Assembly: GCA_009930495.1 (NCBI GenBank)
Contig: RZYB01000005.1
Span: 1-41,424, forward strand
Length of the DNA: 41,424 nucleotides
DNA from: Deltaproteobacteria bacterium
GTDB lineage: Bacteria > Desulfobacterota > Desulfovibrionia > Desulfovibrionales > Desulfomicrobiaceae
Reading direction: 5' to 3'
Shown here: positions 34,261 through 41,424 of the stretch, one piece after another
How the letters are laid out: every line of letters begins with the position of its first letter
Position numbering within the stretch: position 1 is the stretch's first letter
Translations under genes and position numbers: made by a program
The notes under the pieces: model-generated
The model's input: only the letters and a program-made list of their open reading frames with translations
What the model was told of the DNA's origin: nothing
Database searches by the model: none

Positions 34261-34902
34261 TTACCAGCCATGGGCCCCGACAAGATCGACAAATGCCACG
34301 GAGCCATGGTTTTCGTGATGAATCCGCCCTTCCTTTTTAAAAATGCGAAGCAGCCGTTGCTCGCGTTTGGCCTCGCCCACCGGGATGACCAAAATCCCGG
34401 GATCCGTCAGCTGGTCCAAAAGGGGCTCGGGCACCTTGGGACCGCCGGCGGTGACGATGATCCGATCAAATGGCCCTTGTTCCGGCCAGCCCAGGGTACC
34501 GTCATCAAGCTTGAGCCACACATTGTGGAACTTCATCCGCGAAAGACGGCTTCGGGCCATGTCGTACAGCGGTTTGACGCGCTCGACGCTGTACACGTCC
34601 GCTTCCATGGCCGCGAGAATCGCGGCTTGATAGCCGGAGCCGGTACCTATTTCAAGGATGCGCATTCGGGGGCGGACAACCAAAAGAGAGGACATGAGGG
34701 CCACGATGTAGGGTTGGGACAGGGTCTGCCCCAAACCGATGGGCACGGCATGGTCGCCGTAGGCTTGAGCTTGAAGGGCTTCATCGACAAAGAGGTGTCT
34801 GGGTACCCGACGCATGGCCGCGAGCACGCGTTGGTCCGTGATCCCGCGAGCCTCGATCTGCTCCAGTACCATTCGTTCGCGAATCCGACGCAAATCCCTC
34901 AA
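34261..34902 (-). CDS. pcm: Protein-L-isoaspartate O-methyltransferase
   Basis: This about 213-residue SAM-dependent enzyme methylates isoaspartyl residues to start repair of damaged proteins. It has the family start [20 protein letters not shown], the substrate loop [16 protein letters not shown], the SAM-binding [14 protein letters not shown], then [20 protein letters not shown] and LVIPVG. I prefer the TTG at 34902 because GGGAG lies about six bases upstream and it gives the usual family N-terminus; an ATG at 34938 would add 12 residues but has no good ribosome binding site. It is divergent from the CBS gene and lies 68 bases upstream of mrp. Confidence 0.93.
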
Positions 34903-35074
34903 GGAAACTCCCAGCACGTGAAATTCATGAAAAAACATTGCCAACACGTGCAAACCAAATTTCACATCCCAAGTCAACACAGAGCGCCGAATCGACCCTG
35001 TAACGCCGCGAAAAAAAACCTTTTGCTTGCCCGAACGAACGGATTCATGAACAATATGGGAAAAGGAGACAGCC

Positions 35075-35509
35075 ATGTTCCAGGTAAAAGACATCATGAC
35101 CAAGGACGTTTTCACTCTGAATAGGCGGGACACTCTGAGCGCGGCCAAGGATCTGATGGACTTGGCCCGAATCCGACATATCCCCATTGTCGACGACCAG
35201 GGAAACTTCGCCGGATTGCTCACCCACCGCGACATCCTGGCCGCGACCGTCTCGGTGTTGGCCGGCCTCGACCGCGAAACCCAAAATGAGATCGAGGCCA
35301 GCATTCCCATCCGGGAAATCATGCAGACCGACGTGGTCACGGTCAGCGCCGATCTGTCCCTCAAAATCGCGGCGCGGATGCTTCTGGAGGAAAAATACGG
35401 GTGCCTGCCCGTGGTCTGCGACGGGCATCTGTGCGGCATCATCACCGAAGCGGATTTTCTCCGCCTGACCATGGACCTGATGGACGCAGTGGAGCCGGAT
35501 GAGGATTAA
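35075..35509 (+). CDS. CBS-domain pair protein
   Basis: This 144-residue cytoplasmic protein is a stand-alone Bateman module of two CBS domains, at about 6-60 and 78-135. Motifs include [60 protein letters not shown] and [20 protein letters not shown]. Such proteins bind adenosine nucleotides and regulate partners, but the ligand here is unknown. AAGGAG lies six bases before the ATG. It is convergent with mgtE, which itself carries CBS domains; this may be coincidence. Confidence 0.92.
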
Positions 35510-37085: not shown

Positions 37086-38051
37086 ATGCATCATATCATC
37101 ACAACGCTCACCCAATCCATCCAGAACGGCCTGCGACCGACCGAAGCCCTGGGCCGCGAGCTGGCCCGACTCGGCGACGAGCACACCACCGCCCTGCTCT
37201 GCGCGGCCAACACCATCAAAAACGCCTTTGGCCTGGCGCATTTCACCTGCTCCATCACCAACGCCAAGTCCGGTCGTTGCTCCCAGGACTGCGCCTTCTG
37301 CGCCCAGAGCGCGCACCACGACACCGGCGCGCCAGAGCACCCGCTGTTGCCCCTGGAGCAGATGATTGAGCGCGGCCTGGCCATGCACCGGGCCGGGGCG
37401 CGCTGCTATTCCCTGGTCACCAGCGGCCTCATGCTCTCAAGCCAGGAAATCGACCAGATCTGCGCCTGCCTGCGCGCCTTGCGCGAACAGACGGACCTGG
37501 AACTGAGCGCCTCCCTGGGCCTGCTCACGGACGACTACGCCACCCGCCTCAAAGCCGCTGGTCTGACCCGCTACCACCACAATCTGGAAACGGCCCGCTC
37601 CCATTTCCCGCGCATCTGCACCACCCACGCCTATGACGATGACATCGCCACCATCCGCCGGGCACAGGCGCACGGACTCAAGGTGTGCAGCGGCGGCATT
37701 CTGGGCCTGGGGGAGAGCTTTGATCAACGCATCGAGCTGGCCGCGACCCTGGCCGAACTGGGCGTGGACACCGTGCCGCTCAATTTCCTGTCCCCCATTC
37801 CGGGCACGCCCCTGGGCCAAAGCCCCCTCCTGACGCCGCACGATGCGCTCAAATCCGTGGCCCTGTTCCGGTTCATGCTGCCCACGGCGCACATCACCAT
37901 CGCCGGCGGTCGGGAACGGGTCCTGGGCGATTACCAATCCTGGCTGCCCCTGGCCGGGGCCAACGGACTCATGATCGGCAATTACCTGACCACCAAGGGC
38001 CGCGGCCTGGACCAGGACCGGCGCATGCTGGAGCGGGGACAATGGATCTGA
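37086..38051 (+). CDS. bioB: Biotin synthase
   Basis: This 321-residue radical-SAM enzyme inserts sulfur into dethiobiotin, the last step of biotin synthesis. The SAM cluster ligands are C65, C69 and C72 in SGRCSQDCAFCAQS. Other family blocks are RCYSLVTSG, YHHNLETARSHFP, VCSGGILGLGESFDQRIELA, VPLNFLSPIPGTPLG and the C-terminal GANGLMIGNYLTTKG. I start it at the ATG at 37086 (MHHIITTLTQ), after GGGAAAAA; upstream in-frame codons are not protein-like. It is the first gene of an operon in which every gene overlaps the next; it overlaps the hotdog gene by 10 bases. Confidence 0.96.
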   Translation: MHHIITTLTQSIQNGLRPTEALGRELARLGDEHTTALLCAANTIKNAFGLAHFTCSITNAKSGRCSQDCAFCAQSAHHDTGAPEHPLLPLEQMIERGLAMHRAGARCYSLVTSGLMLSSQEIDQICACLRALREQTDLELSASLGLLTDDYATRLKAAGLTRYHHNLETARSHFPRICTTHAYDDDIATIRRAQAHGLKVCSGGILGLGESFDQRIELAATLAELGVDTVPLNFLSPIPGTPLGQSPLLTPHDALKSVALFRFMLPTAHITIAGGRERVLGDYQSWLPLAGANGLMIGNYLTTKGRGLDQDRRMLERGQWI

Positions 38052-38359
38052 ACCTCGTTTCCGCCAGTGCCGAAGAACGGATCTACGCCTGCCGGCTCGC
38101 ACCGGACGATGCCTGCTTCCACGAGCATTTTCCGGACAATCCGGTTCTGCCCGGATCGCTGGTGGCGGCCTTGAGTCTCCAGGTCGTGCGCGAGGATTTC
38201 GGCCGGACCGACGCCCTGCGCATCGAGCGCTTCACCTTTCGTCGCTTCGCCGCGCCCGGCGCCTACGAACTGCGGATCACGGCCGATGACGGCGCTTTCC
38301 GATGCCGGCTGCTCCAGGAAAACATCATCCATGCCGAGGGGCGGATCACATGCGTCTGA
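38042..38359 (+). CDS. FabZ-like hotdog protein with catalytic His but no Glu
   Basis: This 105-residue protein is a hotdog-fold relative of 3-hydroxyacyl-ACP dehydratases. The FabZ active-site loop is clear: H29 in HFPDNPVLPGSL, the equivalent of HFPGxPxMPGVL. In FabZ the catalytic Glu lies 14 residues after that His; here the position is A43 (SLVAALSLQ). Alone it should lack a complete FabZ-type site. A second hotdog gene in the same operon (40566-40976) has the Glu and lacks the His, so the two may form one heterodimeric enzyme. It probably dehydrates 3-hydroxyacyl intermediates of the pimelate chain. It overlaps bioB and the SDR gene by 10 bases each. Confidence 0.85.
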   Translation: MDLNLVSASAEERIYACRLAPDDACFHEHFPDNPVLPGSLVAALSLQVVREDFGRTDALRIERFTFRRFAAPGAYELRITADDGAFRCRLLQENIIHAEGRITCV

Positions 38360-39066
38360 CCTTCACGGGCGCGCGCGTGCTCATCCTGGGCGGAAGCTGC
38401 TCCCTGGGCCTGGCTCTGATCGATCTGACGCGCGAAACCGGCCTGGCCATCGTCCCCACCCACTCCTCGGATACCGGCCACGCGGCCCTGGCGGAACGTT
38501 TTCCGGACCTGGCCGCGCGCAGCCCGCGCCTTGATCTGGGAGATCCGGCCAGCGTGGACGCCCTGGAACGGGACGCGGATTATGTGATCGACTTCGCCCA
38601 CGCCCGCTTCGAAGCCCTCATGGCCGCCAGCACCGAAGCCGACGCCTATTTCGCGGCCCAGATCGCCGGCCGCCAGCGCCTGCTCCGCCACCTGGGACGG
38701 GCCATGCTGACCCGACGCTTCGGCCGCCTGATCCATGTCTCGTCCACGGCGGCCTGCCTCCCGGCCGAGGGCCAGGGGTTTTACAGCGCGGCCAAGCGGG
38801 CCGGCGAGGCCCTGTATCAGGCCCTGGGTCTGGAACTTGGCCCGCGCGGCGTGACCAGCGTCAGTCTGCGCCTGGGCCTGCTCGATGCCGGGCGCGGTGC
38901 GAATTTTCTGGACACGGCCGACCGCCGCGCCACCCTCAAAGCCCCGCTGGTGACCACGGACCAGGCCGCGTCCACGCTTCTTTTCCTGATGTCGGACCAA
39001 GCCCTGGCCTTCACCTGCACGACCCTGACCATGGACGCCGGACTGACGGCGCGCAAACACATATGA
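38350..39066 (+). CDS. FabG-like short-chain dehydrogenase/reductase
   Basis: This 238-residue protein is an SDR of the 3-oxoacyl-ACP reductase type. The Rossmann loop reads LILGGSCSLGLALIDL, slightly altered from TGxxxGIG. The catalytic Ser is S131 or S132 (HVSSTAA), with Y145 and K149 in FYSAAKRAG. The C-terminal LTMDAGLT resembles FabG's vDGG. It is expected to reduce the 3-ketoacyl group on the operon's carrier protein with NADPH. It overlaps the preceding hotdog gene by 10 bases and the ACP gene by 4 (ATGA). Confidence 0.9.
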   Translation: MRLTFTGARVLILGGSCSLGLALIDLTRETGLAIVPTHSSDTGHAALAERFPDLAARSPRLDLGDPASVDALERDADYVIDFAHARFEALMAASTEADAYFAAQIAGRQRLLRHLGRAMLTRRFGRLIHVSSTAACLPAEGQGFYSAAKRAGEALYQALGLELGPRGVTSVSLRLGLLDAGRGANFLDTADRRATLKAPLVTTDQAASTLLFLMSDQALAFTCTTLTMDAGLTARKHI

Positions 39067-39428
39067 ACACCTTGGAAACCATCCGCTCCATTCTAGCCGA
39101 AATTCTCGATCTGGACCCGACGGACATCACGGCCGACACCTATGTCATCCGCGACCTGGAAGCCGAATCCATCGACCTGCTGGAAATCGGCGTGGCCATC
39201 CAGCATCGTCTTGGGACCCAGGTCGACGACGACACCCTGTTCCTGAAAAACCTACGCATCCAGCTCGCGCGGGCCGAACAGAACCAGACCGCGCCCCTCG
39301 ATCTTCTGACCGAAACCTACCCCCACCTGGATGCCGCGCGGCTGCGCCAGATACTGGACGATGTCCAGGCCGGACCGGTGCTGCGCGTGCGCGATCTGGT
39401 CGCCTATGTCGATGCCGCCCACAGCTGA
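39063..39428 (+). CDS. Acyl carrier protein with an internal insertion
   Basis: This 121-residue protein is an acyl carrier protein. Helix I (MNTLETIRSILAEILDLDPT) and the phosphopantetheine site S36 in DLEAESIDLLEIGVAIQHRL are typical. Ordinary ACPs are about 78 residues with the last helix about 27 residues after the Ser. Here the matching helix (VLRVRDLVAYVDAAH) lies about 70 residues after it, so about 45 extra residues (roughly 53-104, including LLTETYPHLDAARLRQILDD) are inserted before helix IV. This suggests a carrier recognised only by partners of its own operon. It overlaps the SDR gene by 4 bases and the ketosynthase by about 23. Confidence 0.9.
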   Translation: MNTLETIRSILAEILDLDPTDITADTYVIRDLEAESIDLLEIGVAIQHRLGTQVDDDTLFLKNLRIQLARAEQNQTAPLDLLTETYPHLDAARLRQILDDVQAGPVLRVRDLVAYVDAAHS

Positions 39429-40572
39429 ATCACCGCGCCGGGTGGTTGTCACGGCCAGCGGATTCCTCCTCCCCCTGGGCCGGGACGAGGTCAGCCTCCT
39501 GGCCGGTCTGGACGCGCCCCACGGCCCCTTCGTGGCAGCCCTCCAGGACCCGGAAGTGGCGGTCTGTCCGGTTCCGGACTTCGACCTCAAAGCCTTCACC
39601 GGCCGCTTCAAGGACGCCCGCTACCTGACCCGTGGCCAACAACTTTGTCTGGCCGCGGCCATCCGCGCCGTGGAACGCTCCGGCCTGAACCCGACCGCCC
39701 TGAATCAAGCCGGGCTGTTCCTGGGCCTGGGGCCCAATCTCGAAGCCAGCCCCCGTACGGACAGAGCCCTGTGGCTCCTTGACTACCTGCCCAACACGGT
39801 CGCCGCCGCCATGGCCAAATTTTTGGGAGTGCACGGTGAAAACCTGACCATCCTGACGGCCTGCGCGGCCTCGACCCAGGCCTTGGGCCAGGCTTTCCGG
39901 GCCATCCGTCACGGTCTGGCCGACGTGGCCCTGGCCGGCGGCGGGGACTCGCGCCTGTCCGGCCCCGGCATCGCCGCCTACAAGCAGGCCGGTGTTCTGG
40001 CCTCGGGCTGGAGCCGGCCGGAATTGGCCTGCCGCCCCTTTGACCGCGCCCGCTCGGGCTTTGCCATCGGCGAGGGCGGGGCCATGTTCGTGCTTGAAAG
40101 TCTGGAGCACGCACGAAAGCGCGGGGCCGTCATCCTGGCCGAAATCACCGGCGCGGCCTCGTCCCTGGACGGTCACGCCCTGACCGGCCCGGACCCGGAC
40201 GGCCGCGCCGCTCGCCAGGCCGTGGCCCGTTGCCAAAACGAACCCGGCGCGGTCATCGTCGCCCACGGCACGGGCACGGTCCTGAACGACGCCATCGAGG
40301 CCGAAGTCCTGGCCGCCAGCGCGCCCCTGGCCGTTGTCGCCTTCAAATCGCGCATCGGGCACCTAGCCGCGGCCTGCGGCGCGGCGGAACTGGCCCTGGC
40401 CCTGGCCTGCGCCAAACGCGGCCTGTTCCCGGCCATCGCCAATCTGAACGATCCGCAACGGCCGGACCTGCCCTTTCTGCGCCTCCCCACGCGGCTTGCG
40501 CCCAAAACCCTGCTCATCCAGAGTTTTGGGTTCGGCGGCCAGAATGCCTGCCTGGAGATCCGGCCATGGTAG
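39406..40572 (+). CDS. Beta-ketoacyl-ACP synthase (FabF/KAS II-like)
   Basis: This 388-residue protein is a thiolase-fold condensing enzyme of the KAS I/II class, with a full Cys-His-His triad: C153 in TACAASTQAL, H287 in VAHGTGTVLND and H319 in FKSRIGHLAAACG (with K314). The gatekeeper region SFGFGGQNACLEI is also present. Unlike BioZ, which is a KAS III, this enzyme should extend an acyl chain on ACP with malonyl-ACP. Its residues 111-140 differ from housekeeping FabF (about 25 residues shorter overall), which may reflect a carboxylated substrate. The start is uncertain (39406 or 39412, both within the ACP gene). It overlaps the next gene by 7 bases. Confidence 0.92.
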   Translation: MSMPPTAESPRRVVVTASGFLLPLGRDEVSLLAGLDAPHGPFVAALQDPEVAVCPVPDFDLKAFTGRFKDARYLTRGQQLCLAAAIRAVERSGLNPTALNQAGLFLGLGPNLEASPRTDRALWLLDYLPNTVAAAMAKFLGVHGENLTILTACAASTQALGQAFRAIRHGLADVALAGGGDSRLSGPGIAAYKQAGVLASGWSRPELACRPFDRARSGFAIGEGGAMFVLESLEHARKRGAVILAEITGAASSLDGHALTGPDPDGRAARQAVARCQNEPGAVIVAHGTGTVLNDAIEAEVLAASAPLAVVAFKSRIGHLAAACGAAELALALACAKRGLFPAIANLNDPQRPDLPFLRLPTRLAPKTLLIQSFGFGGQNACLEIRPW

Positions 40573-40976
40573 GCGATTTCACGGCCCGCTTCGATCCGGC
40601 CCTGGCCCTGTGGCGCATCGAGGCCTGCTCGGCCACGGCCATCACGACCCGCACGAAGCCCAACCCGCCCGACTATCTGATCCTGGAAGCCCTGGCCCAG
40701 ACCTGCGGCATGCACGCCCGCTGGCTGCACGATTTCCGCGAACAGGTCTTTCTGGTGTCCCTGGCCGGCCTGGTTTATCCCGACGATCACGGCGCGGCCG
40801 GCTGCCTCGTCCAGGCCGAACTGACCGGTCAGACCGGCGCGGCCTTCAGCTACGCGGCGCGCCTGGACAATGGCCCGGCCTGCCGCGTGACCATGGGCCG
40901 TCTGCCCACCGCGCCCGACACGACTCTTTTTCGCGAGCGATTCCAATGCTTGATCACCCCATCGCCCAACGTCTGA
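40566..40976 (+). CDS. Second hotdog protein, with catalytic Glu but no His
   Basis: This 136-residue protein is a second hotdog-fold dehydratase- or ApeI-like protein. The central helix reads PPDYLILEALAQTCGMHARW, matching FabZ's GVLxxEAmAQ, so E41 occupies the catalytic acid position. There is no His anywhere in the first 49 residues; the FabZ His position, 14 residues earlier, is T27. It complements the first hotdog protein of the operon, which has the His and lacks the Glu. FabA/FabZ sites are built across a dimer interface, so a heterodimer would have one complete site. Its start overlaps the ketosynthase by 7 bases and its end overlaps bioF by 31. Confidence 0.82.
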   Translation: MVGDFTARFDPALALWRIEACSATAITTRTKPNPPDYLILEALAQTCGMHARWLHDFREQVFLVSLAGLVYPDDHGAAGCLVQAELTGQTGAAFSYAARLDNGPACRVTMGRLPTAPDTTLFRERFQCLITPSPNV

Positions 40977-41424
40977 AGGCCGAAATCGCGGCCAGAACCG
41001 CATCCGGCCTGGGACGACGATTTTTGCCGATCCAGGCCCGCGACGGCGCGCGCCTCGTCGTGGACGGCCGGGACATGCTCAATTTTTCCGCCAATGATTT
41101 CCTGGGCCTGGCCACGGACCGCGCGGCCGCGTCCGAATTGGCCCGCCTGTGCGCGGCCCAGGGCTGCGGAGCCGGGGCCTCGCGTCTGGTGACCGGCACC
41201 ACGGCCTCCATCCTGGCCGCCGAGGACGCCCTGGCCGCCTATTTCGGCTTCGAGTCCTGCCTGATCCTGGGCAGCGGATTTCTGGCCAACCTGACCCTCA
41301 TCGCCACCCTGTTCTCGGCCAAGGACACCCTTATTCTGGACAAACGCGCCCACACCAGCACCATGGCCGGCGTGCGTCACAGTGGAGCCGCCTTTCACAC
41401 CTTCCGGCACAACCGCATGTCGCA
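40946..41424 (+). CDS. bioF: 8-amino-7-oxononanoate synthase (BioF), C-terminus cut by window edge
   Basis: This is the N-terminal 159 residues of an alpha-oxoamine synthase, the PLP enzyme that joins pimeloyl thioester to alanine in the first committed step of biotin ring assembly. I translated it from the ATG at 40946. The family blocks are MLNFSANDFLGLA, GCGAGASRLVTGTTASILAA and CLILGSGFLANLTLIATLFS. The PLP lysine lies beyond the window. It overlaps the hotdog gene by 31 bases. BioF is supported over KBL or other family members mainly by the operon with bioB. Confidence 0.9.
   Translation, partial: MLDHPIAQRLKAEIAARTASGLGRRFLPIQARDGARLVVDGRDMLNFSANDFLGLATDRAAASELARLCAAQGCGAGASRLVTGTTASILAAEDALAAYFGFESCLILGSGFLANLTLIATLFSAKDTLILDKRAHTSTMAGVRHSGAAFHTFRHNRMS

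Follow-up and report, generated by a model that had tools for sequence, protein, structure and literature searches.

In the BioC-BioH route, methyl masking and the housekeeping fatty acid synthase lead, through fatty-acid-type elongation, to pimeloyl-ACP for BioF; BioI, a P450, requires oxygen. Another gene set was predicted for Desulfovibrio in 2004 (PMC545781), and a 2023 transposon fitness study of D. vulgaris found nine clustered genes, the five module genes among them, to be specifically needed without biotin (PMC10102598). The D. vulgaris operon DVU2558-DVU2565 includes bioB, a FabZ-like protein, a 3-oxoacyl reductase, an ACP, a ketosynthase, a second FabZ-like protein (DORF42491) and bioF, and D. 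vulgaris has bioA and bioD and lacks bioC (PMC545781, PMC10102598). The 2023 paper presumes elongation of malonyl-ACP, and calls the building of pimelate in BioC-less anaerobes unresolved (PMC10102598). In the accessible parts of both papers, no mention is made of complementary hotdog halves for this operon.

The window analysed here is a stretch of 41,424 nucleotides that makes up an entire contig (C5) of a MAG (3.2 Mb, 493 contigs, 97.55% complete) whose nearest named relatives are Desulfomicrobium, Desulfomicrobiaceae. Positions 37086-41424 are filled by seven plus-strand ORFs in the order bioB-HD1-SDR-ACP-KS-HD2-bioF:

37086-38051, + strand: bioB, biotin synthase (radical SAM and BATS), 321 aa; TIGR00433, Pfam BATS and Radical_SAM.
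38042-38359, + strand: HD1, small single-hotdog protein, 105 aa; FabA-like match, predicted hotdog, Foldseek match to ApeI.
38350-39066, + strand: SDR ketoreductase, FabG-like, 238 aa; adh_short_C2, E 1.4e-15.
39063-39428, + strand: dedicated ACP, 121 aa; PF00550.
39412-40572, + strand: FabF-like ketosynthase (KS), 386 aa from the ATG at 39412; PF00109/PF02801.
40566-40976, + strand: HD2, predicted second hotdog protein, 136 aa; predicted fold, Foldseek matches to FabZ and ApeP.
40946 to beyond 41424, + strand: bioF, 8-amino-7-oxononanoate synthase, first 159 codons; TIGR00858.

All six junctions are overlaps, of 10, 10, 4, 17, 7 and 31 bases in order, which bears out the run of seven successively overlapping genes described in an earlier, sequence-only reading of this DNA; the family matches and the predicted fold of HD2 agree with it. 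BioB scores 364.9 bits against the TIGR00433 equivalog cut-off of 225 bits (NCBIfam). TIGR00858 is the best NCBIfam match of BioF and covers the first 137 of 365 positions, the gene being cut by the contig end, and FabG is the best NCBIfam match of the SDR, below its cut-off. A search for a BirA-type operator upstream of bioB with the published consensus gave, near the operon, a best site of 12/18 matches, which does not exceed what other parts of the window yield. At 34261-35509 of the window, a plus-strand ORF that reads as CBS-domain-like (35075-35509) overlaps, in antisense, the 5' portion of a minus-strand ORF, whose C-terminal half resembles protein-L-isoaspartate methyltransferase and whose long 5' extension is probably spurious.

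The locus is a further member of the known module type, and the sequence-only reading was correct in recalling a similar Desulfovibrio locus, predicted in 2004 and supported by fitness data in 2023 (PMC545781, PMC10102598). The window differs from the D. vulgaris operon in having no birA beside the operon, and in that bioA, which that reading had proposed to look for and which is present once in the genome, lies on another contig (C13, 592 bits) and not between bioB and HD1. By homology with D. vulgaris, the module would be needed for biotin synthesis in this Desulfomicrobium relative.

The same gene order was found in all same-genus loci having enough contig, and the HD1-SDR-ACP-KS-HD2-bioF block is also present in Desulfovibrionaceae, in other Desulfovibrionales families and in at least three further families of the phylum. 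Across relatives the order reads bioB-(bioA)-HD1-SDR-ACP-KS-HD2-bioF, HD2 adjoins bioF in every complete locus, and the protein encoded after bioF in one relative (L026) reads as bioD. Because this gene order recurs in other genera and families, chance adjacency and pseudogenes are ruled out. A Desulfovibrionaceae MAG contig (JAUMVQ010000022.1; L046:3291-6106) carries HD1-SDR-ACP-KS with no adjacent bioB, HD2 or bioF found, for which loss, rearrangement or an assembly break are candidate causes.

In contrast to the BioC-BioH route, no BioC was found in the genome, and the operon holds no esterase gene up to the contig end. The best profile match to BioC reaches 51 bits against a cut-off of 184.95 and the matches are partial generic methyltransferases, of a kind that arises in every genome searched; BioW gave none. 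The genome-wide searches for bioC and bioW suggested earlier thus returned neither gene, and three single-contig genomes of the same genus (G002, G005, G012) agree in having neither route. Among 150 genomes sampled across the order, the module is carried by 38 (37 plus one, G427, whose ACP is cut), the same set being marked by the long ACP and by a broad HD2 profile (A5); a narrow HD2 profile picked up few relatives (7 of 395), and the broad one was used for the order-wide count. A full-length BioC-like protein, mostly under the strict cut-off, is present in 58 of the 150 genomes, and about 54 have neither. Module and BioC-like protein are found together in none (0/150; Fisher p 5e-10, computed with 37 module genomes and uncorrected for shared ancestry). 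Across this order, the module takes the place of BioC, and this mutual exclusion, along with the absence of BioC and BioW from the window's own genome, supports the BioC/BioH-independent route that had been proposed from the sequence. In a sister genus of the same family (g2; G016, G017), HD1 is absent and bioA-bioD-bioB faces bioC-hydrolase-bioF, and another genus (g6) includes module genomes and BioC-type genomes alike. One genome of a third genus of the family (G018, g3) is without module, BioC-like protein or bioA over the cut-off, and may therefore be a biotin auxotroph. The counted exclusion of BioC, like the complementary half-site pattern described below, is an addition of this analysis that was not found in the open-access literature consulted, of which coverage was incomplete.

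We propose, with a probability of about 0.72, that the locus is a Desulfovibrio-type pimelate module with a split-site HD1/HD2 dehydratase and carboxyl-tolerant elongation. On the private ACP, the ketosynthase would condense malonyl units with a dicarboxylic primer that bears a free omega-carboxyl. Reduction of the 3-keto group would fall to the SDR, HD1 and HD2 would jointly dehydrate the product as one heterodimer, with His from HD1 and Glu from HD2, and each cycle would be finished by an enoyl reductase from another part of the genome, either housekeeping FabI or a nitroreductase-like protein. Cycles would repeat until pimeloyl-ACP passes to BioF, the same end point as in the BioC-BioH route. 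Residue R52 of HD2 and an altered pocket of the ketosynthase are candidates for tolerance of the free carboxylate, and such tolerance would make BioC methylation and BioH release unnecessary.

The ACP has a PP-binding domain (PF00550, E 4.6e-9, residues 5-60) with the attachment Ser in AESIDLLEIGVA, S36 being invariant (alignment A1). It is about 120-126 aa long in the window and in relatives such as L026, L055 and L091, and the marked genomes have in common an insertion behind the PP-binding core with the conserved sequence YPxLxxxRIxxILxDLxxGPxLKVxDL, perhaps a docking element through which the ACP stays private to the module. A second ACP-like match in the same genome (C3:17342-17590) is far weaker, and the module ACP is distinct from the housekeeping ACP. 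In the ketosynthase, all 37 module sequences have C151, H285, H317 and K312. Moreover, Y71, R181, Y190, T129, P108 and Q377 (36/37) are kept in the module and differ from 11 same-family paralogues; Y190 aligns with a Phe that we take to line the FabF acyl pocket. A long branch separates all 37 module ketosynthases from FabF, in a tree whose rooting and deep support are weak and whose subclades mostly track genus and family. Further ketosynthases occur in the window's genome at C177 and C4, and a Desulfomicrobium genome (L038; G005:C1:1536000-1549000) encodes another HD1-like hotdog at a distance of 4 kb from a ketosynthase, perhaps in an aryl-polyene-like cluster.

The operon contains nothing that pins down the primer, and the ketosynthase might start from glutaryl, supplied by lysine or crotonate metabolism, and reach pimeloyl-ACP in a single round, instead of two rounds from malonyl. 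Such a route would follow the logic of BioZ, for which pimeloyl-ACP formation via a ketosynthase and lysine catabolism is described (PMC7645780). We regard it as unlikely, since the module ketosynthase is FabF-like rather than KASIII-like and the operon is without a glutaryl-forming gene, and the 2023 account presumes that malonyl-ACP is elongated (PMC10102598).

The split-site dehydratase of the preferred reading is suggested by complementary conservation in HD1 and HD2. FabZ acts as a dimer and uses a Glu-His dyad; in hotdog dimers, both subunits contribute to the active sites (PMC2698920). The hotdog fold is shared with FabZ, in which His and Glu are found in a single chain, whereas in the window the His loop is on HD1 and the Glu helix on HD2. 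In HD1 of the window, the catalytic His of FabZ is retained (H29, motif HFPDNPVLPG) and Ala occupies the position of the FabZ Glu; HFPxxPxxPG is invariant in 37 of 37 HD1 sequences, and the Glu position is taken by G, A, Q, H or S, with E or D in just six of the 37. HD2 keeps the catalytic Glu (E41, LEALAQ), the Glu of the E-x-x-A-Q motif being present in 36 of 36 sequences together with an invariant Arg eleven residues past it (R52, 36/36), and a His nine residues past it is kept in 35. The FabZ-type His loop is absent from these 36 HD2 sequences, one of which (L106) has the HF pair without the remaining motif.

HD1 has a weak FabA/FabZ family match (Pfam/NCBIfam). HD2 has no Pfam or NCBIfam match and no convincing PDB sequence match, and is predicted to be a hotdog from its modelled fold and its Foldseek matches; a profile match to CpcN was set aside as scattered repeats. 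The AlphaFold2 single chains are hotdogs, with pLDDT of 93 (HD1) and 87.5 (HD2), in which H29 is placed just ahead of the HD1 central helix and E41 near the start of the HD2 central helix. The top Foldseek match of HD1 is ApeI (chain 6qsr_A, TM 0.84, 21% identity), and those of HD2 include FabZ (E 1.1e-5, TM about 0.5-0.6), ApeP (chain 6qsr_B, E 6.7e-5, rank 17, 13% identity), 4-hydroxybenzoyl-CoA thioesterases and PA1618. ApeI and ApeP, whose complex has a solved structure, are described as forming a heterodimeric dehydratase having a single active site (PMC8041823). From the complementary conservation, together with the matches to ApeI:ApeP (PDB 6qsr) and FabZ, we infer that HD1 and HD2 form a heterodimer with a split dyad. 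The two systems are alike in having two small hotdog proteins, with a fold match for each subunit, and would share the logic of one active site per pair; however, ApeI:ApeP belongs to another pathway, sequence identity is low, no Pfam match links them, and where the window's HD1 has Ala in place of the acid, ApeI aligns with an Asp. The proposed split also differs from the mycobacterial HadAB heterodimer, in which both catalytic residues come from one subunit (PMC4491049). There is, in our judgement, an even chance that an obligate heterodimer with a split dyad and an Arg recognising the free carboxylate makes this a self-contained carboxyl-selective module instead of a FAS II copy.

Alternatively, dehydration in the same module may be left to HD1, either homodimeric or aided by the housekeeping FabZ, and HD2 may be a hotdog of thioesterase or proofreading type, serving to release or edit acyl-ACP. 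The lack of a His motif in HD2 fits this, as do its thioesterase and PA1618 matches, proteins in which a lone acidic helix residue is catalytic (PMC2698920). Moreover, in the six loci where HD1 keeps Glu or Asp, an HD1 homodimer could be active, and housekeeping FabZ could be the dehydrating enzyme instead. We consider this arrangement unlikely: 31 of the 37 HD1 sequences are without an acid at the FabZ position, so that a homodimer would be without the dyad, the constant neighbour of bioF is HD2, with a FabZ-like Glu motif (EAxAQ), and the top match of HD1 is the ApeI half of a heterodimer. That the module builds another acyl chain, for a lipid or pigment, and merely shares the operon is highly improbable: aryl polyenes are made by type II PKS-like sets with paired hotdogs, but the biotin-specific defect of the D. 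vulgaris homologue mutants (PMC10102598) largely refutes this, and the replacement of BioC by the module also stands against it.

Under the split-site reading, enoyl reduction would come from outside the operon. The sequence-only reading had noted the missing enoyl reductase and suggested a housekeeping source or genes beyond the edge. The operon, as far as the contig contains it, encodes none, and a FabI at C110 of the same genome, which shares 47% identity with an E. coli FabI query, is a possible enoyl reductase. In four relatives (L055, L059, L095, L097), a nitroreductase-like gene lies between ACP and KS, named by its likeness to the description in the 2023 paper, which noted a nitroreductase in Syntrophobacter and Desulfobacter clusters (PMC10102598). 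A query of this cluster-linked type gave just weak partial matches in Desulfomicrobiaceae and is an unlikely enoyl reductase in the window's genus, where FabI or a DVU1220-like protein would therefore be needed.

The complementary half-sites of HD1 and HD2 offer a concrete, testable mechanism for pimelate making in BioC-less anaerobes, and the clean swap with BioC within one order provides matched strains in which free-carboxyl and masked elongation may be compared.
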